Of a stretch of 64,000 bases of DNA, positions 3,738 to 57,823 are shown piece by piece. Source of the stretch: a virus; the IMG/VR virus record IMGVR_UViG_3300031787_010241, positions 62,001 through 126,000 of that record. One strand, 5' to 3'. Below the pieces are notes generated by a model. That model was not told the DNA's origin. It did not search any database and was given only the letters and a program-made list of their open reading frames with translations. Position numbers and translations under genes: made by a program. The stretch's first letter is position 1. Every line of letters starts with the position of its first letter.

Positions 3738-5795
3738 ATGGTTATTATTAGAAAAAAAACAGTTATGATAGAATCTGCGGATAATGATGGAAAAAAATCA
3801 AAACAAACTAGTGATAGTGGTACCCCTGTACTAGATAATTTTAGTAGGGATTTAATTAAACTTGCAGAACAAGGTAAAATTGACCCTGTGGTCGGTAGAG
3901 AACGAGAAATAACAAGGATAGCTCAAATTCTTTCAAGAAGAAAAAAGAACAATCCAATTATCATTGGTGAGCCAGGTTGTGGTAAAACCGCAATTGTCGA
4001 AGGATTAGCAATTAAAATCTTTGAAGGAGATTGCCCAAGAAATCTACAGGACAAAAGAATTGTATCTTTAGATATGACTTCAATTGTTGCCGGTACAAAG
4101 TATCGTGGTCAGTTTGAAGAACGTATGAAGGTGATTATTGAGGAGTTACAAAGTAATCCAAATATTATTGTCTTCATTGACGAAATTCACACTATTGTAG
4201 GAGCCGGTAACTCGTCGGGGTCATTAGATGCTTCCAATATCTTCAAACCGGCACTTGCTCGTGGAGAAATTCAATGTGTTGGGGCAACAACCAATGATGA
4301 ATATCGTAAAAACTTTGAAAAGGATGGGGCCCTTGAGCGTCGTTTCCAAAAGGTTGTCGTGGATGCCGCAACAAAGGCCGAAACACTTCAAATTCTAAAA
4401 AATACAAAGGACAAATATGAAACATATCACAAAGTATCATATTCAGACCCAATTTTAAGTTTGTGCGTTGATTTGGCCGAACGATATATTACAGACCGTG
4501 AGTTTCCTGATAAAGCCTTTGACATCATTGATGAAGTTGGTGCTCGTAGTCAAGTTGAGATTAAGATGCCGGAGATTATTGATGATTTGAAGAAGCAGGC
4601 TCAAGATATTAAACAACAAAAGTTAGATGTTGTTAAAAAACAAAACTATGAGGAAGCCGCAAATTTGAGAGATAAGGAAAAGAAAATCCTATCAAAACTT
4701 GAAGATGAGAAAAAGAAATTTGAGAGTGATTTGTTGTTATCAAAACGAGATGTGACCGAAGAATTGGTATATGAGGTTGTATCAAATATGACCAAAATTC
4801 CAATCTCAAAACTAAACTCCGATGAAACAAAATTACTGACAGAATTAGAGAAAAATCTTTCAGGAAAAGTTATTGGTCAAGAAGAAGCGGTAATCAAAAT
4901 TTCAAAATCAATCAGAAGAAATCGTTTGGGTATCAAGGACCCTAACAAACCAATTGGGTCATTTATATTCTTGGGCTCTACTGGTGTTGGTAAAACATTA
5001 CTCGCAAAACAACTTGCCAAAGAAATATTTGGTAGTGAGGACAGCCTTATCAGAGTTGATATGTCTGAATTCCAAGAAAAACATACAATCTCTCGTTTGA
5101 TTGGAGCTCCTCCCGGATATGTTGGTTATGATGAAGGAGGACAACTTACAGAACAAGTGAAAAACAAACCTTATTCTGTGGTATTGTTTGACGAAATTGA
5201 AAAGGCAAACAAAGATATTTTTTCAGCACTGTTACAAGTATTGGATGATGGTCATATCACCGATGGTTTGGGTAGAAAAATCAACTTCAAGAATTGTGTC
5301 ATTATTATGACCTCAAACATTGGGGCTAAAATGTTACAAGATTTTGGTACGGGGATTGGATTTAAATCTGGAACAAATACGTACATTGAAGAAGAATACA
5401 AAAGGGATATATTGAAAAAAGAATTGAAGAAATTCTTCGCACCTGAATTCCTTAACCGAATCGATGAAATAATTGTCTTCAATAATCTCAAGAAAGAACA
5501 AATTGCCGAGATTGTTAAAATTGAATTGAATAAATTATCTAAAAGATTAAGTGGTTTGAAATATCAAATTAATTTCACGGATTCAATTATCGATTTAATA
5601 TCTGAAGTTGGTTTTGATGAAACATATGGAGCTCGTCCACTTAAAAGGGCAATCCAAGATAAAATAGAAGATTATATTTCTGAAGAAGTATTAAAAGGAA
5701 ACATATCCGAAGAAAAGGAATATGAGTTAGTCGCGGAAGAAGGTAATGTCAAAATTATCGAGACTAAAAAGGTAAGAAAGAAGAAGGGGTCATAA
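3738..5795 (+). CDS. clpC: ClpC/ClpB-type AAA+ unfoldase, lacking the N-domain (685 aa)
   Basis: Two AAA+ modules are clear. D1 has Walker A GEPGCGKT (77-84) and Walker B VFIDEIH. D2 has Walker A GSTGVGKT, VVLFDEIEKA and the sensor-2 region GARPLKRAIQ. Between them is a short UVR-like segment (NYEEAANLRDKEKK), typical of ClpC rather than ClpB with its long middle domain. The N-terminal substrate-binding repeat domain is absent, replaced by a ~30-residue polar leader. It should unfold proteins, either for host ClpP or alone. ATG at 3765 is an alternative start. The stop codon lies within the loop of the downstream terminator hairpin. Confidence 0.93.
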   Translation: MVIIRKKTVMIESADNDGKKSKQTSDSGTPVLDNFSRDLIKLAEQGKIDPVVGREREITRIAQILSRRKKNNPIIIGEPGCGKTAIVEGLAIKIFEGDCPRNLQDKRIVSLDMTSIVAGTKYRGQFEERMKVIIEELQSNPNIIVFIDEIHTIVGAGNSSGSLDASNIFKPALARGEIQCVGATTNDEYRKNFEKDGALERRFQKVVVDAATKAETLQILKNTKDKYETYHKVSYSDPILSLCVDLAERYITDREFPDKAFDIIDEVGARSQVEIKMPEIIDDLKKQAQDIKQQKLDVVKKQNYEEAANLRDKEKKILSKLEDEKKKFESDLLLSKRDVTEELVYEVVSNMTKIPISKLNSDETKLLTELEKNLSGKVIGQEEAVIKISKSIRRNRLGIKDPNKPIGSFIFLGSTGVGKTLLAKQLAKEIFGSEDSLIRVDMSEFQEKHTISRLIGAPPGYVGYDEGGQLTEQVKNKPYSVVLFDEIEKANKDIFSALLQVLDDGHITDGLGRKINFKNCVIIMTSNIGAKMLQDFGTGIGFKSGTNTYIEEEYKRDILKKELKKFFAPEFLNRIDEIIVFNNLKKEQIAEIVKIELNKLSKRLSGLKYQINFTDSIIDLISEVGFDETYGARPLKRAIQDKIEDYISEEVLKGNISEEKEYELVAEEGNVKIIETKKVRKKKGS

Positions 5796-8201: not shown

Positions 8202-8221
8202 TAGAACGTTATTTGAAATAT

Positions 8222-8596
8222 GGGGGTAACTTGGAATTGACTAGCATAGTTAATTACTCGGAGCATGTCGAGGCTGAACTAACCTTGTAAAACTGGTTCA
8301 CACGATAAACGGCAACGTTATCAACAAACTCTCTGCAGTTGGTCTTATCCGTACTGAAGAGAACATTTCAGTAGCCTAATCTAGGATTGGGATACAAAAC
8401 GGGTCGGTAAGCATACAACCTTGGAACAGAAGCTCGTACTGTGGTGTGGTTTCTACCCGAAAAGAAACACAACTCGTTTGTGGTTTTGAGAGCTCAAAAA
8501 CCAATATTTCGGAACATTGAGAAGCGATGTTGACCTAAACATGTAGGGCTTAGTAGTTAAGATGAGTAGGAAGGGGTTCGACTCCCCGTACCTCCA
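8222..8596 (+). ncRNA. ssrA: tmRNA (ssrA), phage-encoded
   Basis: The 5' end GGGGGTA (8222-8228) pairs fully, with one G-U, with TACCTCC (8589-8595) to form a 7-bp acceptor stem, with A8596 as discriminator. A T-arm (GGGG TTCGACT CCCC) lies just before it. The inner reading frame begins at GGC 8311 and ends with TAA at 8377-8379. It encodes a 22-residue tag that starts GNVINKLSAV and ends ENISVA, longer than most tags and ending SVA rather than ALAA. The start with Gly-Asn is reminiscent of Bacteroidota tags. Its own promoter and terminator are visible. tmRNA rescues stalled ribosomes and tags the product for proteolysis, perhaps with the phage ClpC-like ATPase. Confidence 0.92.
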
Positions 8597-8603
8597 CCGT
8601 AAG

Positions 8604-10104: not shown

Positions 10105-10130
10105 TAAAAAAAGGTGAGACAAGCTCACCT
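10105..10130 (-). terminator. Terminator of the large ncRNA - tRNA-Met unit
   Basis: On the minus strand AGGTGAG-CTTGT-CTCACCT is followed by T7. It lies 10 nt beyond the 3' end of tRNA-Met and closes the unit that begins at the promoters near 11118-11348. Confidence 0.85.
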
Positions 10131-10140
10131 GTAAATTTGT

Positions 10141-10211
10141 TGCAACTGAAGGATTCGAACCTCCGACCTTCAGGTTATGAGCCTGACGAGCTGGCCTCTG
10201 CTCTAAGTTGC
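10141..10211 (-). tRNA. tRNA with CAU anticodon (Met type)
   Basis: Cloverleaf on the minus strand: acceptor GCAACT/AGTTGC, D-arm GAGC/GCTC, anticodon arm TCAGG-CTCATAA-CCTGA (anticodon CAT), T-arm GGAGG-TTCGAAT-CCTTC. No CCA is encoded. CAU may also be a tRNA-Ile2 read after lysidine modification. No separate promoter is visible, so it should be processed from the 3' end of the large ncRNA transcript. Confidence 0.9.
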
Positions 10212-10212
10212 G

Positions 10213-11105
10213 ATGTAAGATTAAACGAAGCCTGAGATTACAGCTTTCTGTGAGAACCTTTTGAAGGATTATTGTTTCCCTTCGTATCCACTTCCTTTTG
10301 AGAAGTATTTCTCAGTCACGGTCTTTTAGGTTTACCACTCCTTGAGGTTTAAGTTACTCTCTTATTACTTAACTCTTTCCGAGGTTGCCACCCCAGTTCA
10401 TCCTTGCGGGATTAAAGGTTTTTCGTAAAACTACAGTCGGACTTGGGGTCTTTCTGTACCACTGACAGCCAGTGATTAGGTAGTGACCTTTCACTTAAAC
10501 CTGATGGACACTTTTCCTTTAATTATTTTTTAATAATTTAAGATTGTGTCGTGGATGTGTCAGAGTAGTGGTCCACCGTAAGTTCCGTCTCCTTTTGAGC
10601 GACAGAATACTAAACTACTCCGTGAGATATCCCTATCTCCATACTTTCAGATTACTTCATAAAGAGACCTTGGTAGGTCTTCCTTAGGGGTAGTAGCGAC
10701 ACCACTCGTTCTCTACCTTACCTTTCGGTTTTAAGTACCCTTCTGTATTGGAATCCGCAATATTGTAGTTGGAAGCCACATTTCTTACTTGATTCCTATG
10801 GGTTATTCTTGTTGGTGTTCCCACCTCAACTTGACAATCCACTTTGCCAAGTCACCTGACCACTTTCCCTACAGTGTTACCCTCGGTACTAAAGGTCTTG
10901 TGATATCCCACTTGTGTACTCGAGTTCCTTTCGAAACCGCAACCTCCTCAACACGGGGGAGGTCACTTTATCCTACTTTCGTAGTTTATTTAAGGACCAT
11001 ACACGGCCCATTATCTTTTACAGTTGTCTCAGAATCAACCCTAAGGTCTCATCATCAACATCCTGATGGATAATCTAATTTTCAAAGAACTTCTTCGGTC
11101 ATTTC
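10213..11105 (-). ncRNA. Large structured non-coding RNA (~0.9 kb), GOLLD/ROOL-like
   Basis: No credible gene lies here, yet the minus strand folds densely. Examples are CTAC-GAAA-GTAG (10973-10984), GGTG-GGAA-CACC, ACC-GAAA-GGT and CACTG-GCTGT-CAGTG. Also present are a 9-bp hairpin ACTTGGCAA/TTGTCAAGT, a GGAATC/GATTCC helix, and a 7-bp GAGTAGT/ACTACTC helix enclosing TTCTGTC/GACGGAA. Three Bacteroidota-type promoters precede it, and tRNA-Met and a terminator follow. Size, GNRA loops and tRNA linkage fit GOLLD RNA (large phage RNAs often next to tRNAs); ROOL is usually shorter. The class assignment is from memory and unverified. The exact 5' end is inferred from promoter position. Confidence 0.78.
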
Positions 11106-11117
11106 CGAATTGTTTTA

Positions 11118-11148
11118 CAAATTTAAGTCAAATTTTTCGTTCTGTCAA
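11118..11148 (-). promoter_or_regulatory. Proximal promoter (P3) of the large ncRNA unit
   Basis: Minus strand TTG-N20-TAAATTTG. Just downstream is the hairpin TTCGG-AAATGA-CCGAA. Confidence 0.75.
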
Positions 11149-11217
11149 ATTTTTCTTAAACTTTTTTTTAAAGATTCGAGACTTGTATCTTAATCGTTGT
11201 CCGTCTCAAATCTTTTA

Positions 11218-11248
11218 CAAATATATGGTGACTTTTTCATTCTACCAA
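11218..11248 (-). promoter_or_regulatory. Middle promoter (P2) of the large ncRNA unit
   Basis: Minus strand TTG-N20-TATATTTG, 100 bp upstream of P3. The transcript would begin near a GAGAC...GTCTC hairpin. Confidence 0.75.
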
Positions 11249-11318
11249 ATTTATTTGTAAGTTTTTTTAGATTTAACTTCCGAGTATCTTTCATCACCTG
11301 TAGGTGTCAAATCCTCTA

Positions 11319-11348
11319 CAAATGTAAGAATAAATATTGCTGGAACAA
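11319..11348 (-). promoter_or_regulatory. Distal promoter (P1) of the large ncRNA unit
   Basis: Minus strand TTG-N19-TACATTTG, 101 bp upstream of P2. The hairpin CACC-TACA-GGTG follows. Confidence 0.72.
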
Positions 11349-14900: not shown

Positions 14901-14917
14901 ATTTCAAATAACTTATG

Positions 14918-15069: not shown

Positions 15070-15204
15070 TAGTCAAGGAAGGGTTCGAACCTTCACGGGG
15101 TGTCATTATAGTAACCACATCGAAACGATGCTTTTTAACCCACGCTGCTATAACCATGCGTCGCGTCTGCCTGAAGAGTACTCTTTCATTTCCGCCACTT
15201 GACT
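15070..15204 (-). tRNA. Aberrant 135-nt tRNA-like gene with D-loop insertion, anticodon unresolved
   Basis: Perfect 7-bp acceptor stem (AGTCAAG/CTTGACT) and a proper T-arm (GAAGG-TTCGAAC-CCTTC). The D-arm is of Leu type (TGGCGGAAATG...GCAGACGCG), but ~15 nt are inserted in the D-loop containing the palindrome AAGAGTACTCTT. The region after the D-arm is ~30-40 nt too long. ACGC-A-TG-[GTTATAG]-CA-GCGT is one possible anticodon arm (anticodon UAU) and CATCG-TTT-CGATG another hairpin. It could hold an intron-like insert or be a tRNA mimic. A good host-type promoter precedes it. Confidence 0.65.
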
Positions 15205-18671: not shown

Positions 18672-18703
18672 CACAACTCGAACCAATAGTCAAAAAAAAT
18701 TAG

Positions 18704-18775
18704 TACCCCCGTCTGGATTCGAACCAGAAAAATTTCATTAGAAGTGAAATAGTATATCCCTTTACTTACAGGGGC
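18704..18775 (-). tRNA. tRNA-Arg (UCU)
   Basis: Acceptor GCCCCTG/CGGGGGT with two G-U pairs, D-arm AGT/ACT, anticodon arm TTTCA-CTTCTAA-TGAAA (anticodon TCT, reads AGA), T-arm CTGG-TTCGAAT-CCAG. AGA is a preferred Arg codon in AT-rich phage genes. Confidence 0.9.
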
Positions 18776-30630: not shown

Positions 30631-32496
30631 TTAACTTGGTTTTACTTCTTCAAAATCTACGTCTGAAACTTCAGGGTCGCTAACTTGACCTTCGTCTCCT
30701 TGACTATAAATTCCTTGAGTAATCGTTTGAGCGACCAACGCCAATTTACCAGTACCGTTTCTTACCTTTTCAATATCCTTTTCAGCGATTGATGTCTTCA
30801 ATTCTGATATTGCTTCAGCAAGTTGGGTTTTTTGTTCTTCGGTCATCTTCTCCTCCAAATCTTTCATGGTTTTTTCGGATTGGAATACCAAAGAATCCGC
30901 TTGGTTAATAGCGTCGGCATCTTCTCGTGATTTTTTGTCCGCCTCTGCGTTCATTTCCGCATCTTGTTTCATCTTTTCGATTTCTTCTTTTGAAAGACCT
31001 GACGATGATTCAATACGGATTGATTGTTGTTTGTTGGTTGCCTTATCCATCGCCGATACATTGATAATACCGTTGGCATCGATGTCAAAAGTAACTTCAA
31101 CTTGTGGAACACCTCTCATTGCTGGTGGTAGTCCGTCCAAAATGAAACGACCAATTGTTCGGTTGTCTTGAGCCATTGCTCTCTCCCCTTGTAGAACGTG
31201 AATCTCTACTGATGGTTGATTATCAACCGCCGTTGAGAACACTTGGGACTTTTTAGTTGGGATTGTTGTGTTTGCCTCGATGAGTTTTGTGAATACACCA
31301 CCTTGAGTTTCAATACCAAGTGATAGTGGAGTCACATCAAGTAACAATACATCTTTAACATCCCCTGCGAGTACACCTCCCTGAATTGCTGCACCGAGTG
31401 CCACAACTTCGTCAGGATTAACTCCTTTTGATGGTTCTTTACCGAAGAATTTTTTAACCGCTTCTTGGATTGCCGGAATACGAGTTGAGCCTCCAACCAA
31501 GATAATTTCATCAATGTCCGCAGGTTTCAAACCGGCATTTTTGAGAGCTGACTTACACGGTGCGATTGTACGTTGTACCAAACTGTCAACAAGTTGCTCA
31601 AACTTTGCCTTTGTCATTGTGCGAACAAGGTGTTTTGGAACACCATCTACCGGCATAATGTAAGGTAGGTTGATTTCTGTTGATGGTGAAGTTGACAACT
31701 CAATTTTTGCCTTTTCAGCTCCTTCACGGAGACGTTGAAGTGCCATTGGGTCTTTGGTCAAATCAAGTCCGTTTTCATCTTGGAATTCTTTAACGAGCCA
31801 GTCAATGATTACGTTATCGAAGTCATCACCACCGAGGTGAGTGTCACCATCAGTTGCCAATACTTCAAATACACCATCACCCAATTCAAGGACTGATACG
31901 TCGTGAGTACCACCACCACAGTCGAACACCACAACTTTCATGTCTTTACCTTGTTTGTCAAGACCGTAAGCAAGTGCCGCCGCAGTTGGTTCGTTAATTA
32001 TACGTCTAACGGTAAGACCCGCGATTTCACCAGCTTCTTTAGTCGCCTGACGTTGAGCGTCGTTGAAATACGCCGGTACCGTGATAACCGCCTCTGTTAC
32101 AGTTTCGCCCAAATAATCTTCAGCAGTTTGTTTCATCTTTTGGAGAACCATTGCCGAGATTTCTTGTGGTGAATACTTCCTGTCTTCAATTTGGACACGA
32201 GGAGTATTACCGTCACCTTTAACTACCTTGTAAGGTACTCGTTTAATTTCTTTTTTACTCTCATCAAAACTGCCTCCCATGAAACGTTTGATAGAATAAA
32301 CTGTTTTGTCAGGATTAGTAACTGATTGACGTTTAGCCGGGTCACCAATCTTTCTCTCACCACCATTCGCAAAACCTACAATTGAAGGGGTGGTTCTTTT
32401 TCCTTCACTGTTTGTAATCACAACAGGTTCGCCGCTTTCCATAACGGCAACACACGAATTTGTTGTTCCTAAATCAATACCTATAATTTTACCCAT
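30631..32496 (-). CDS. dnaK: Hsp70 chaperone DnaK, full length (621 aa)
   Basis: Complete Hsp70: N-terminal [50 protein letters not shown] and LVGGSTRIP. The substrate-binding domain [17 protein letters not shown] and an acidic C-terminus DVDFEEVKP follow. One substitution in the phosphate loop ([10 protein letters not shown]; usually DLGGGTFDVS). Such close similarity to bacterial DnaK suggests acquisition from a host. It would help virion protein folding and may work with the DnaJ-type zinc-finger protein at 60280. Confidence 0.97.
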
Positions 32497-38312: not shown

Positions 38313-38999
38313 TTAAATAAACTCCAAGTTATTCGTTACAGGGTCCCACTCTACTGTTAGAGGTTTTTGGGTGTATTGATACTGTTCATCCAGCACTGAT
38401 GCATTTATGAAGTGAGTATCTCCGTCAAAAACATAACCATACCCTGAGTGTATATGTCCGCAGACATGAATTTTGGGTTTAATTTTCTTAATCCGCTTGG
38501 TTAGTAATTCACAACCAAGATTATCATACTGACCCACCACAGTATCCAAGATACCAAACGCAGGTCCGTGAGTAATCAAGATGTCCGTATCCTCAGGAAT
38601 GTCGTTCCACTTCTGCTCAAGTTCCCATCCATTCTTTGGTAAATTAAACGCCCAATTATGAAACTCAGGTTGCCATGGACTACCATAAATTTTAACAAGG
38701 GTTTCCATATCAGGACCAAAGGACAAATGATTGTCTTGAAGGTATGTAATCCACTTGTATGAATTAACAATTTCCATAGTTTCTTCGGGTCGTTTCTCAA
38801 ATCCAAAGTCGTGATTACCGGCAATGAAGACAACCGCAGAATAATTAGTCAAGCCATCAAACCACTTACAGAATTGTTGAATCTCGTGTTTGTGACCCAT
38901 ACTTGATATATCACCAGCGTGAATAAGCAAGTCACCGCCAGGTAAATCCTGTATTTGTTTGTGCTTATTGTGAGTATCGCTGATGAATGTTATCTTCAT
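38313..38999 (-). CDS. Calcineurin-like metallophosphoesterase (228 aa)
   Basis: Metal-binding blocks are all present: ISDTHNKH (DxH), HAGDISSMG (GD), FIAGNHDFGF (GNHD), ILITHGPAFG and HVCGHIHSGYG (GHxH). It would hydrolyse phosphoesters of nucleotides or nucleic acids; the substrate is not deducible. It overlaps the NusG-like gene by 4 bp. Confidence 0.92.
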   Translation of the reverse strand: MKITFISDTHNKHKQIQDLPGGDLLIHAGDISSMGHKHEIQQFCKWFDGLTNYSAVVFIAGNHDFGFEKRPEETMEIVNSYKWITYLQDNHLSFGPDMETLVKIYGSPWQPEFHNWAFNLPKNGWELEQKWNDIPEDTDILITHGPAFGILDTVVGQYDNLGCELLTKRIKKIKPKIHVCGHIHSGYGYVFDGDTHFINASVLDEQYQYTQKPLTVEWDPVTNNLEFI

Positions 39000-39517
39000 T
39001 TTCTTATTTGTGTGTCTTCGAGTTCAACTGATGTTGGTCTACCAAAAATAAGGACATTTACCTTAATTTTACCTCTTTCTTTGTCAATATGTTCAATATT
39101 CCCCTTGAATGATGCGAATGGGCCTTCAGCGACCGTAACTTCATCACCAATACTGAAAATATCGGTGAATTCTTTCGCCTTATTCTCTTCGTGAAGTCCA
39201 ATCATACGACTAACTTCATTTTCGGGAATAACTTGGATGTTACCGGCTCTGTCAGACAATAGTCCTGTGGCTCCATCAATCTTTTTAACAACCTGTTTGA
39301 GTTCCCCAATTGCCGAGGTCTCAACAAATACATAACCAGGAAACAATACTTTTTCTCGTTGTGTCTTTTTCCCGTTTTTTGTGGCAAATACCTTCTCCAA
39401 CGGTACAACAACTCTACCCAATACTCCAGATAATTCCCCTTTTTCACCTTCTTTAAGAAGTCGTTCTGAAACTTTACGTTCCCGATTAGCTTGTGCTCTT
39501 ACAATATACCATTCCAT
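38996..39517 (-). CDS. nusG: NusG-like transcription elongation factor
   Basis: 173 aa from MEWYIVRAQANRERKV. NGN domain with WYIVRAQANRE, PLEKV and LFPGYVFVE. The C-terminal KOW domain is GDEVTVAEGPFASFKGNIEHID. All are NusG hallmarks (GPFxxFxG). A phage NusG could couple RNA polymerase to ribosomes or antitermination of long phage operons. Start at 39517 is preferred over 39541 from alignment to NusG starts. Confidence 0.9.
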   Translation of the reverse strand: MEWYIVRAQANRERKVSERLLKEGEKGELSGVLGRVVVPLEKVFATKNGKKTQREKVLFPGYVFVETSAIGELKQVVKKIDGATGLLSDRAGNIQVIPENEVSRMIGLHEENKAKEFTDIFSIGDEVTVAEGPFASFKGNIEHIDKERGKIKVNVLIFGRPTSVELEDTQIRK

Positions 39518-39528
39518 ATTATTAATTT

Positions 39529-40074
39529 TTAATCCCACCATTTATCAATATTCTTCGCGATGAATTTATACGCTTCTTTTTTATCTTTTCTATAATCCTT
39601 ACGAGCTTGTTTCATTGTGGCTCTAAACTCGGTTGAGTATTGTTCCTCATCCTCGGGAGTTTTTACATTCTCATGTTCAATCTCCATAAACATTGAGCCG
39701 GTACCATCATTTGTCGGAATCCAATTGAATGTACTCTTCCCCCACTTCTTCTGAATCTCCTCCATGGCCGGGTCTTCATAAAACTCCCAACTATCACGGG
39801 TCATGTGAAGACGGTCAATTGCCTCCTGAATTTCGGCAGCAACCTCTTTAGCATTAAGGATGTGAGTATTATCAGACAAGAAGAAATCTCGGGTATGTTC
39901 GAGTTTTTTGATTAATATTTCATTAATGAAGTGACTATCATAGTCCTCATCCTTCCAAATTGTGGGAAGCCATCGAAAAACGTTCTTAATTTTTCGAATA
40001 AATCGCTTAACAGCGTATTTTATGTCTTTAAAGCTTTCCCCAACCATTTTTATACTGTGTTTCATCGATACCAT
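39529..40074 (-). CDS. Conserved phage hypothetical protein (181 aa)
   Basis: Basic amphipathic N-terminus (YAVKRFIRKIKNVFRWLPTI) and a charged helical body (QARKDYRKDKKEAYKFIAKN). MKHSIKM (40065) may be the true start. No recognised domain; the layout is seen in T4-like and jumbo phages. Confidence 0.72.
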   Translation of the reverse strand: MVSMKHSIKMVGESFKDIKYAVKRFIRKIKNVFRWLPTIWKDEDYDSHFINEILIKKLEHTRDFFLSDNTHILNAKEVAAEIQEAIDRLHMTRDSWEFYEDPAMEEIQKKWGKSTFNWIPTNDGTGSMFMEIEHENVKTPEDEEQYSTEFRATMKQARKDYRKDKKEAYKFIAKNIDKWWD

Positions 40075-43974: not shown

Positions 43975-44547
43975 TTACCTAACAACTGTAACATGACCAA
44001 AAATTATTTCAGGTTCTCGGTCAATACCCTTCCAAGTAACCTTATATTCGTAGACATCATTTTGAACGTAATATTCTCCACCTCTAAAGTTACCAATCCA
44101 TTGTCCTTTTGGGTCAACTGACTTAAATACAAGTACCCCCCATCTGTCAAATACTAATACTTCTATACTTTCCCATCCTGTTCCTTGGGGAAACCAAGTA
44201 TCGTTAAACCCATCATCGTTTGGAGTAAAAGCATTTGGAATATAGATTGAAGAACATTCCCCAATGAAAACTTTAAACTCCATCGGGTTTGACCTACATC
44301 CATCACTTTTTCCATAAACTTTAATTGTATGGACTCCAGGAGAATAAGTTTCCCAATTGACGGTCAGGGTTTGTCCAAAATGATAGATACCATCTACGTA
44401 CCAATAAAATGTTGTATTTGGTGTATTAGACTCTATCGAATACGTATATTCTGTTTTAGATTCGTCTTCGCATATGTCTATCTTTTGGTCTTGTCCTGAA
44501 ACAATCATGACCAACAAAAACAACAAAAGTGTTTTTATTTGTTTCAT
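43975..44547 (-). CDS. Secreted protein with gliding-type (CHU_C, T9SS type B) C-terminal domain
   Basis: 190 aa. Signal peptide (KQIKTLLLFLLVMIVSGQ), one Ig-like domain, then IPNAFTPNDDGFNDTWFPQG and VLVFDRWGVLVF, the classic start of the gliding-motility-associated C-terminal domain recognised by type IX secretion. It should be exported and displayed by the host. It is the last of three exported genes in a row (46313 to 43975). Confidence 0.85.
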   Translation of the reverse strand: MKQIKTLLLFLLVMIVSGQDQKIDICEDESKTEYTYSIESNTPNTTFYWYVDGIYHFGQTLTVNWETYSPGVHTIKVYGKSDGCRSNPMEFKVFIGECSSIYIPNAFTPNDDGFNDTWFPQGTGWESIEVLVFDRWGVLVFKSVDPKGQWIGNFRGGEYYVQNDVYEYKVTWKGIDREPEIIFGHVTVVR

Positions 44548-56008: not shown

Positions 56009-57823
56009 TTACCTAATAAGTGTTACATAACCGGACTCTTGTTTATTCTGTCCGAATTTATCTTTATATTCAATTATCCAATTATAGATTCCATTGTCAC
56101 AATAGTAACCACTTCCACTATCACCAGTCCACCAAAGATTTGATGATTCATAAACTACCACACCCCACCTATTGAATACTCTCATCATTGGTCTATAAAC
56201 TGACAATCCTCTGACTTCAAAAATGTCGTTTGTTCCATCACCATTAGGCGTAAATGAGTTTGGTGCGAAAAATCTCTGACAGGATTCGGTTTTTACGGAT
56301 ATTAATTTTGGTTCACTTTCACAACCAATCTCGTCGTAAGCAATCACCTTAACAATATAAGTTCGTGTAGTATCATACCATTCGATTGTCATATTATTTT
56401 CGTTCGATAATTGTTTAACTTCGTCGATAAACCATCCGTATGTTACACCAACTGTATCTTCAGCAATATATGTTTGAACTCCCGAATCAAAACAAAGGTC
56501 AATTAACTCGGCACTATAAATAATATTTGGAGCTTCGTATTTTCTTTTAACAACAACCTCAACTTCTTCTTGGATGTCACATCCGTGAATATTAGTAAGG
56601 TAGGATGGATGATATGTTCCAGGTTTGGTTCCAACAAATGTGTTTCCATTCATAAACTCTGAAGACCAACTTCCACCTTGCGGAAACGGTATAATCTCAT
56701 CCGACGAATTTAAGCACATTGAAAATGAGTTATGATTGAATATAATATCGGGTATGATAAGTTCAACTTCACAAGTTTTAATTACTCCGACACATCCTTC
56801 CTCCGTAGTTTCTTGTACCGTAATTGTATATGTTCCAGGAATGTCCCCCCAAATAATTTCACAATCTTTTGTGAGGTCAGTAGTTACAAGTCCTCCACCT
56901 GAAACTTGCCAATCATATGTGGAAGTAATATTTCCTGTAACTGAATACATTACCTCTGAACCAGTACAAGTTGTGTCAGGACATGGGATAAAATTATGGG
57001 TTATGTCCCCCATACTGAAATAGTTACAAGTTCCGTCATCACATCCCGCAAGTGGATTGAAGTTACAGGCAATTGGGTCGGTACATCCACCATAAGTACA
57101 ACTACCGTCATCACAGGGTGCGTTTAAATCAAAGTTACAGGCAAGTGGGTCGGTACAACCTGGTAAAATACAACTACCATCATCACAAGCCGCGTTGGCA
57201 TCATAGTTACAAGCCGCAGCGTTTGTACATCCATATGTGTTACATCCAACCTCTCCAATAAAAATACTAACAGGTGGGTCTTGACCTACACAATCGGCAT
57301 TACCCCAACTCCCCATAGTACCATCAGAAAAGTTTTGTACCTCAATATTTAAAGGGTCACCACTATTACCCGATGAAGTAAGTTCGACACAGAAAGTCCA
57401 AACACAATCTCCATTCATACAATAGTCACCCCAGTCATTACCGGGGTTACCATCTGTTGGGCCTGTCGGACCTTCAAAGAAATAACCAGGACCTGCCACC
57501 AAACCTGTGGCATCAGAAGTTACAGTATTCATCCATAACCAAGTTCCGCTTGCATCTGCGTCAGCATCGTCAGGAGGAAGTGTTGGATTCACAACTACCC
57601 ATCCCGCTCCCAATGTTAATCCGAAACCTTCCATCCAATTAGACCCTTGGGCATTACCATTCCATCCGGTCATTGTAACACAAAGTTCTATGGTTGTGTT
57701 GGGGGGGTATGTTCCGTCAGCGGCTGGTGGGGTACTTAAATCAAATGTAAGAGCTCCACCACATTGTGAAAATGAAGTTAGAGACGATAGTAAAATTGAT
57801 AGTAATAAAATTAAATGTTTCAT
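56009..57823 (-). CDS. Large secreted protein with T9SS type B C-terminal domain (604 aa)
   Basis: Signal peptide (KHLILLLSILLSSLTSFSQ). The N-terminal ~180 residues are a Bacteroidota-type beta domain rich in Gly/Trp. Next are three calcium-binding-like repeats GCTDPxACNFxxxAxCDDGSC (about 195-270), Ig-like domains, and a C-terminal gliding-type domain (FAPNSFTPNGDGTNDIFEVR; VFNRWGVVVYES). It should be secreted by the host type IX system and displayed on the cell surface. No transmembrane or phage baseplate feature is seen. Confidence 0.87.
   Translation of the reverse strand: MKHLILLLSILLSSLTSFSQCGGALTFDLSTPPAADGTYPPNTTIELCVTMTGWNGNAQGSNWMEGFGLTLGAGWVVVNPTLPPDDADADASGTWLWMNTVTSDATGLVAGPGYFFEGPTGPTDGNPGNDWGDYCMNGDCVWTFCVELTSSGNSGDPLNIEVQNFSDGTMGSWGNADCVGQDPPVSIFIGEVGCNTYGCTNAAACNYDANAACDDGSCILPGCTDPLACNFDLNAPCDDGSCTYGGCTDPIACNFNPLAGCDDGTCNYFSMGDITHNFIPCPDTTCTGSEVMYSVTGNITSTYDWQVSGGGLVTTDLTKDCEIIWGDIPGTYTITVQETTEEGCVGVIKTCEVELIIPDIIFNHNSFSMCLNSSDEIIPFPQGGSWSSEFMNGNTFVGTKPGTYHPSYLTNIHGCDIQEEVEVVVKRKYEAPNIIYSAELIDLCFDSGVQTYIAEDTVGVTYGWFIDEVKQLSNENNMTIEWYDTTRTYIVKVIAYDEIGCESEPKLISVKTESCQRFFAPNSFTPNGDGTNDIFEVRGLSVYRPMMRVFNRWGVVVYESSNLWWTGDSGSGYYCDNGIYNWIIEYKDKFGQNKQESGYVTLIR

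Follow-up and report, generated by a model that had tools for sequence, protein, structure and literature searches.

The antitermination complex of bacterial rRNA operons consists of NusB-S10 bound to boxA, together with NusA, NusG, and SuhB. The phage locus studied here shares the architecture of an rRNA operon leader, with a promoter, a short leader, the boxA-like element GTTCTTTGA, a long untranslated RNA, and a tRNA in the same unit. It differs from such a leader in that it is carried by a phage, leads a GOLLD RNA (and, in relatives, tmRNA), and has a boxA function that is putative. GOLLD is an RNA class already known, with expression that rises during lysis among its traits; the rRNA-style leader, and its likeness to the leaders of rRNA and of phage tmRNA, are the new part. 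No paper in the open-licence literature that we searched links GOLLD RNA to boxA or to phages of Bacteroidota, and none treats boxA together with Nus and phage tRNAs.

The cage that GOLLD forms is very large and consists of RNA only; cryo-electron microscopy of the member env-38 resolved it as a 14-mer (PMC12286853). Our locus shares with env-38 (RF02032) a 3' domain that spans the whole model, a less conserved 5' domain, a variable linker, a length of more than 800 nt, a phage origin, and a tRNA-Met neighbor. It differs in its tandem promoters, hairpin, boxA-like leader, and convergent tmRNA, and in the position of the tRNA-Met, which is downstream here but upstream in env-38. ROOL (RF03087), another large RNA of phages or prophages, likewise assembles into a cage (PMC12286853).

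The window, by which we mean the whole 64,000-nt stretch of DNA that was analyzed, covers bases 62001 to 126000 of a 165,622-base virus record (IMG/VR IMGVR_UViG_3300031787_010241; G000 in the coordinates below). The GOLLD is thus phage borne, and it adjoins a tRNA-Met (10139 to 10212). On the minus strand, the unit runs from three tandem promoters through a hairpin, the boxA-like GTTCTTTGA, the GOLLD 5' and 3' domains, and the tRNA-Met to a terminator, and its transcript start and end are predicted from the following features.

11319-11348, minus: promoter P1, TTG (11348-11346), N19, TACATTTG (-7 box 11326-11319), read from the sequence
11270-11313, minus: P1 leader element GATTTGACACCTACAGGTGATGAAAGATACTCGGAAGTTAAATC, containing the 15-mer GATGAAAGATACTCG
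11218-11249, minus: promoter P2, TTTG...TATATTTG (-7 box 11225-11218), sequence pattern
11173-11212, minus: P2 leader hairpin GATTTGAGAC / GTCTCGAATC, read from the sequence
11118-11149, minus: promoter P3, TTTGAC...TAAATTTG (-7 box 11125-11118), sequence pattern
11094-11109, minus: leader hairpin TTCGG aaatga CCGAA, directly before the boxA-like element
11082-11090, minus: boxA-like element GTTCTTTGA, 27 nt past the end of the P3 -7 box
10623-11081, minus: GOLLD 5' domain, aligned in 70 sequences, no Rfam match
10229-10622, minus: GOLLD 3' domain, Rfam RF02032, model positions 1-416
10139-10212, minus: tRNA-Met (cat), ARAGORN, beginning 16 nt past the GOLLD match
10106-10130, minus: intrinsic terminator AGGTGAG...CTCACCT plus T run, read from the sequence

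The Rfam model for GOLLD (RF02032) matches positions 10622 to 10229 of the minus strand over its full length (1 to 416 of 416) with 317.4 bits, compared to a gathering score of 150. A preliminary description of this DNA had proposed such a comparison by Infernal with Rfam models, and the result is GOLLD, with the model covered completely and a score twice the gathering threshold. Between 9900 and 11400, tRNA (10212 to 10140, minus strand, the same tRNA-Met) provides the single further match at an E value of ≤1, and therefore no ROOL, OLE, or HEARO is present. Specifically, the ROOL model RF03087 has no match at an E value of ≤1 in this interval, and a ROOL identity was rejected. Of the two options given in the preliminary description, a GOLLD-type RNA or a new class, the first stands (RF02032, 317.4 bits) and the second is excluded by the full-model match. 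What spoke for a new class of large RNA is that the 5' half lacks an Rfam match; the 3' half, however, matches RF02032 full-length at 317 bits, and Kretsch et al. describe the GOLLD 5' region as less conserved (PMC12286853), so that we regard this idea as refuted. It is nearly certain that the minus-strand RNA at about 11110 to 10229 is a GOLLD, with a length of about 880 nt (~0.88 kb) from P3 to 10229. The preliminary description was also right in placing a structured RNA of ~0.9 kb on the minus strand, in recognizing three Bacteroidota-type promoters (TTG-N19/20-TAnnTTTG sites on the minus strand, a pattern that we take to be the Bacteroidota-type consensus), and in closing the unit with tRNA-Met (10212 to 10139) and a terminator (10130 to 10106). 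It made no mention of the boxA-like leader, or of the tmRNA and tRNA-like RNAs of this phage that are led in a similar way.

Pattern scans of IMG/VR provided at least 209 loci for comparison, an incomplete sample that is biased toward the lineage of this phage because the patterns were drawn from it. A GOLLD 3'-domain profile, itself built partly from these loci, matches 204 of 211 loci (the 209 from these scans, this phage as L001, and LR745206.1 as L002). The latter, an unannotated 634,780-base record of an uncultured phage, ranks first in INPHARED (24% of the query, 75.9% identity) and has its own GOLLD (287 bits) and a tRNA-Met, there upstream. A tRNA neighbor is not universal among GOLLDs: in 72 representatives, a tRNA lies within 300 nt downstream only in 11, upstream only in 13, on both sides in 9, and on neither in 39, with Met as the commonest kind. 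A terminator-like stem with other letters follows the tRNA-Met in the near relatives L075, L018, L106, L095, and L125 (read by eye) and is absent from the same place in L036. In bacterial genome contigs, a pattern scan returned at least 120 stretches, with one GOLLD by profile among the matches listed, in Mycobacterium (197.3 bits); the same genome is the one with GOLLD among 296 genomes of its phylum. None of 398 genomes of a Bacillus's class matched, in a search that gave no signal whatever, so absence is not implied.

For the alignment, 130 loci were compared with the window, of which 124 gave BLAST matches and 25 were skipped as fragments or for a missing anchor motif. Of the resulting 100 sequences, window included, 27 exact duplicates, two that were too distant (L014 and L002), and one with an internal gap (L110) were removed, leaving 70. 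No reading frame is conserved across them, and a coding gene in the GOLLD region was rejected. The three longest frames tested (94 amino acids [aa] on the plus strand, 52 aa on the minus strand, and 47 aa on the plus strand) are free of internal stops in only 11, 26, and 14 of the 70 sequences, respectively, which agrees with the earlier statement that no credible gene is present.

The RNAalifold consensus fold of the 70 sequences has 235 pairs. In place of R-scape we used a test of our own, whose null consists of 20 alignments simulated by redistributing the observed substitutions over the tree. Relative to this tree-preserving null, 34 column pairs covary at an E value of ≤0.05, and 28 of these are inside the consensus fold, a proportion that leans toward the fold because the fold itself was computed with covariation. 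The finding that 32 of the 34 strongest column pairs are able to pair is not circular; the two pairing-incompatible ones are 10279-10267 and 10712-10696. Thus, the covariation check suggested in the preliminary description was passed, with helices beyond chance. Twelve of the 28 pairs are wholly in the 5' domain and 16 are in the 3' domain; the 5' half, outside the Rfam model, is structured too. Four more of the 34 column pairs are paired in all sequences, including 11002-10916 (G-C in 56, C-G in 8, and A-T in 6). This pair belongs to a 5'-domain loop, UGUA (11003 to 11000), that faces UACA (10918 to 10915), making the two a candidate pseudoknot or kissing contact. The nonamer TCCATCAGG occurs twice in this GOLLD, at 11070 to 11062 in the 5' domain and at 10508 to 10500 in the 3' domain (minus strand).

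A TAnnTTTG box lies within 90 nt upstream of the boxA-like element in 43 of the 55 cluster representatives that have the element (1.6 in shuffles), and in the 450 nt upstream, 7 of these representatives have no full promoter, 11 have one, 20 have two, and 17 have three. The 15-mer within the P1 leader element occurs 22 times among 331 loci, some of them identical, in GOLLD leaders only, always on the GOLLD strand and 512 to 815 nt before the 3' domain. By eye, the outer stem of this element (11313 to 11270) changes on both sides, and the whole resembles a small three-way junction; it has no Rfam match.

Of 129 non-identical viral GOLLDs among the matches listed, 112 have the generalized form of the boxA-like element, GYTCTTTRA, upstream of the 3' domain (this phage is one of the 129; each had at least 600 nt upstream, and 1,000 nt were scanned). 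The occurrence nearest to -500 falls within -375 to -524 for 111 of the 112, and in L110 it is at -241. Scanning both strands of these loci, with the leaders counted in, gives a background of 411 occurrences in 4,226,058 bases (0.097 per kb and strand). Because the lineages are unevenly sampled, we also counted by cluster: at least one exact element between -620 and -250 is present in 74 of 90 clusters at 95% identity, 57 of 72 at 90%, 23 of 34 at 80%, and 14 of 25 at 75%. Per-column identity is 93 to 99% (76% at position 8), compared to 27 to 76% for neighboring columns, values that are inflated because the 67 representatives were centered on a match with at most two mismatches. Of the 17 GOLLDs without the exact element, 5 have a one-mismatch form at -700 to -330 and 12 have none. 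Six named phages, a selection from 63 records, likewise have no exact element upstream of GOLLD (four of Streptococcus, mycobacteriophage PegLeg, and Acinetobacter phage Herod). We therefore rejected the idea that all GOLLDs have a boxA-like element, as these six lack the exact form and 12 of 129 have nothing within one mismatch. Judged from the sequences, the element is a feature of one large GOLLD group with Bacteroidota-type promoters, and GOLLDs outside this group lack it.

In 31 of 35 leaders, the hairpin directly before the element has a perfect stem of at least 4, compared to 6.1 in shuffles, by a strict test that was chosen after seeing the sequences. The stems comprise 13 strings and about six clearly different sequences. 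A looser test (stem of 5 with G-U) hardly discriminates (51 of 55 versus 41.3 in shuffles).

An element this constant might be a structural strand of GOLLD itself, and RNAalifold indeed pairs GTTCTTTGA with 10326 to 10318 of the 3' domain in a helix of 8 pairs with 86% of cells paired. We consider this very improbable. The helix shows no covariation, and positions 10323 to 10325 vary while the element is constant: 39 or 40 sequences have G at the partner position 10323, 20 have A, and 9 or 10 have T, and C11087 is C in 68 of 69. Moreover, 10341 to 10325 looks like a separate hairpin in which changes on one side are matched on the other (by eye; Rfam structure), and in other loci the element stands before tmRNA too. 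As the predicted partner varies and the element stays, the element is conserved without its pairing partner. The structural strand was therefore rejected, and the boxA-like element is judged not to be part of the RNA fold.

The nine letters of GTTCTTTGA match boxA, the Nus-factor antitermination site, and they recur before the rRNA genes of Bacteroidota. Within 200 nt before 16S, the best match in 31 Bacteroidota leaders has no mismatch in 12, one in 10, two in 6, and three to four in 3, compared to means of 0.035 exact and 0.5 one-mismatch matches in letter-shuffled leaders. (The set began with 33 loci, two of which lacked the anchor; the fragments L336 to L338 were left out, and 7 of the 31 have <150 nt upstream.) It speaks against a boxA that the Flavobacterium and Chryseobacterium 16S leaders read GTTCTTAGA and GATCATTGA. 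In some GOLLDs, the likeness extends beyond the nonamer, with GTTCTTTGACATATTG in the L175 GOLLD and GTTCTTTAACATATTGAAATTACAG in the L006 GOLLD beside GTTCTTAGACATATTGAATTGACAG before 16S in a Flavobacterium genome. GTTCTTTGA probably acts as a boxA in this GOLLD leader. The exact element is absent before two Bacilli ROOLs, and a boxA before ROOL was rejected; one ROOL (L370) starts with GCCCTTTGA, which is one letter off the element and inside its first stem.

Other RNAs of this phage have a similar leader. A search of both strands over 165,500 of the 165,622 bases finds 28 copies of the relaxed pattern GYTMTTTRA, and 5 of the 28 have a -7 box within 45 nt upstream, where 0.96 would be expected by chance. 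All five lead untranslated RNAs: the GOLLD, a tmRNA, a tRNA-Leu/tRNA-Met unit, and two tRNA-like units. The features other than the GOLLD, together with one tRNA-like RNA that has its own promoter, are as follows.

8222-8599, plus: tmRNA, convergent with GOLLD, Rfam, 94.6 bits (gathering score 47), not called by ARAGORN
8208-8216, plus: GTTATTTGA, boxA-like with one change, before the tmRNA, 6 nt past the end of the -7 box TATATTTG
14904-14912, minus: GTTATTTGA before tRNA-Leu and tRNA-Met, 5 nt past the end of TACATTTG
G000:151,256 and G000:151,727: tRNA-like units led by GTTCTTTGA and GTTATTTGA, respectively
15071-15204, minus: tRNA-like RNA AGTCAAG ... CTTGACT, 134 nt, apparent D-loop insert, own promoter

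The rule has exceptions, as two RNAs lack the element after their promoters: the tRNA-like RNA at 15204 to 15071 and tRNA-Arg (18703 to 18775), which has GTTATTTGA between its two promoter boxes. Spacing differs also. In GOLLD, the distance from the end of the -7 box to the start of the element is 27 nt, but in the other four units it is only 5 to 6 nt; the latter is about where the transcript is expected to start, which is early for a boxA and weakens the boxA reading of these units.

This spacing in the tmRNA and tRNA units suggests a different signal, namely, an element for initial transcription, 5' processing, or stability, or the target of a phage antiterminator, rather than a Nus boxA. 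The variant GTTATTTGA points the same way in that it departs from boxA, differing from the element at C4; in E. coli, a C4T/T6C double change in the suhB boxA removed SuhB association (PMC5725501). The phage, furthermore, itself encodes at least one transcription factor, NusG. We nevertheless think such a signal unlikely, as the same nine letters are found in 16S leaders of the host phylum (exactly in 12 of 31), the element of GOLLD is placed 27 nt past the -7 box and behind a hairpin, and the element mostly precedes untranslated RNAs.

Around 203 other GOLLD loci, there are 41 further non-identical sites, among the matches listed, in which TAnnTTTG is followed by GYTCTTTRA (≤55 nt apart). By what comes next, these sites divide into 2 with an ARAGORN tRNA at ≤80 nt, 11 with no more than a T-arm motif, 1 with an open reading frame (ORF) of ≥60 aa, and 27 others. 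For 548 element-free promoters, defined by a slightly stricter promoter rule (TTG-N17-22-TAnnTTTG), the corresponding numbers are 11 (plus 29 with a tRNA at 81 to 400 nt), 13, 205, and 290. A few of the 41 sites look unrelated to RNA genes (e.g., L006, L057, L094 at 5512, and L193). In all 27 loci chosen for a tmRNA-like start, Rfam finds a tmRNA, which begins 14 to 30 nt downstream of the point where the element begins. In 26 of these chosen loci, the tmRNA is convergent with the GOLLD, as in the window; only L139 differs (by manual comparison of coordinates). A tmRNA above the cutoff is present in 12 of 21 GOLLD phage records, this one included and many of them fragments. PegLeg (L410) has a tmRNA near its GOLLD as well, and a group I intron overlaps the end of the phage tmRNA match at L094:8352-8575 and L161:3940-4164.

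A tRNA-like cluster at L377:5720-7060 (G000:151,220-152,560, plus strand), found also in L398 to L406, is led by a promoter and GTTCTTTGA. It starts with an Rfam-negative RNA of about 290 nt without plus-strand ORFs of 40 aa, followed by four tRNA-like elements and then a true tRNA-Glu. The four elements span 94 to 120 nt and have a T-arm, matching acceptor stems (mostly AGTCAGG/CCTGACT), and a D-arm like that of tRNA-Leu (GGCGGAATTGGTAGACGC); the anticodon region is replaced or expanded, and ARAGORN calls none of them. Similar elements of 72 to 214 nt, two with an extra D-loop hairpin, recur in shuffled order, and 11 of 20 GOLLD phage records match at an E value of ≤0.001, some by short pieces only. 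The L377-type elements are possibly a new kind of phage tRNA-like RNA. Two further RNAs are a Pistol ribozyme (L022:837-912, minus strand), located upstream of the 3' domain of a GOLLD at a distance of about 360 nt, and a skipping-rope RNA (L198:5950-6084, minus strand) next to another GOLLD in a tRNA array.

NusB is absent from all 16 GOLLD phage records searched for it, this phage included, and the boxA idea therefore needs NusB and S10 of the host. NusG is found in 4 of 20 other GOLLD phage records and in the phage studied here:

38996-39541, minus: phage NusG, PF02357; TIGR00922 with 139.4 bits (cutoff 135.7)

It is possible that this phage NusG is a partner of the boxA complex. Its presence speaks for the boxA reading; the NusG and NusB counts in the GOLLD phage records speak against it. 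Two phage proteins, at 56009 to 57823 (minus strand, just under the cutoff) and 43975 to 44547 (minus strand), have a C-terminal domain of type IX secretion (CHU_C; TIGR04131) and point to a Bacteroidota host. The phage also encodes a DnaK (30631 to 32496, minus strand) and a ClpB/ClpA-like ATPase (3738 to 5795, plus strand).

In our best reading, to which we give a probability of roughly 0.7, GOLLD is produced with the help of rRNA-type antitermination in Bacteroidota phages. The host rRNA antitermination complex (NusB-S10 on boxA, with NusA, NusG, and SuhB) would load onto RNA polymerase at boxA and would then keep Rho from cutting the long untranslated RNA short, so that the RNA could fold while being made, as rRNA does. 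RNase P and the terminator would release GOLLD and tRNA-Met, and GOLLD would assemble into a cage resembling the 14-mer structure of env-38.

If the boxA leader is real, it would explain how a long untranslated phage RNA can be produced in bulk, and it would tie GOLLD to tmRNA and tRNAs in one regulatory group. More tentatively, and with less confidence than we have in antitermination of GOLLD, Bacteroidota phages may run an rRNA-operon-like stable-RNA regulon in which GOLLD, tmRNA, tRNA operons, and tRNA-Leu-like arrays are expressed via promoter, boxA, and the host antitermination machinery, with NusG helping in some. Were this true, GOLLD would be, in terms of transcription, the "rRNA" of the phage and would compete with real rRNA for Nus factors.
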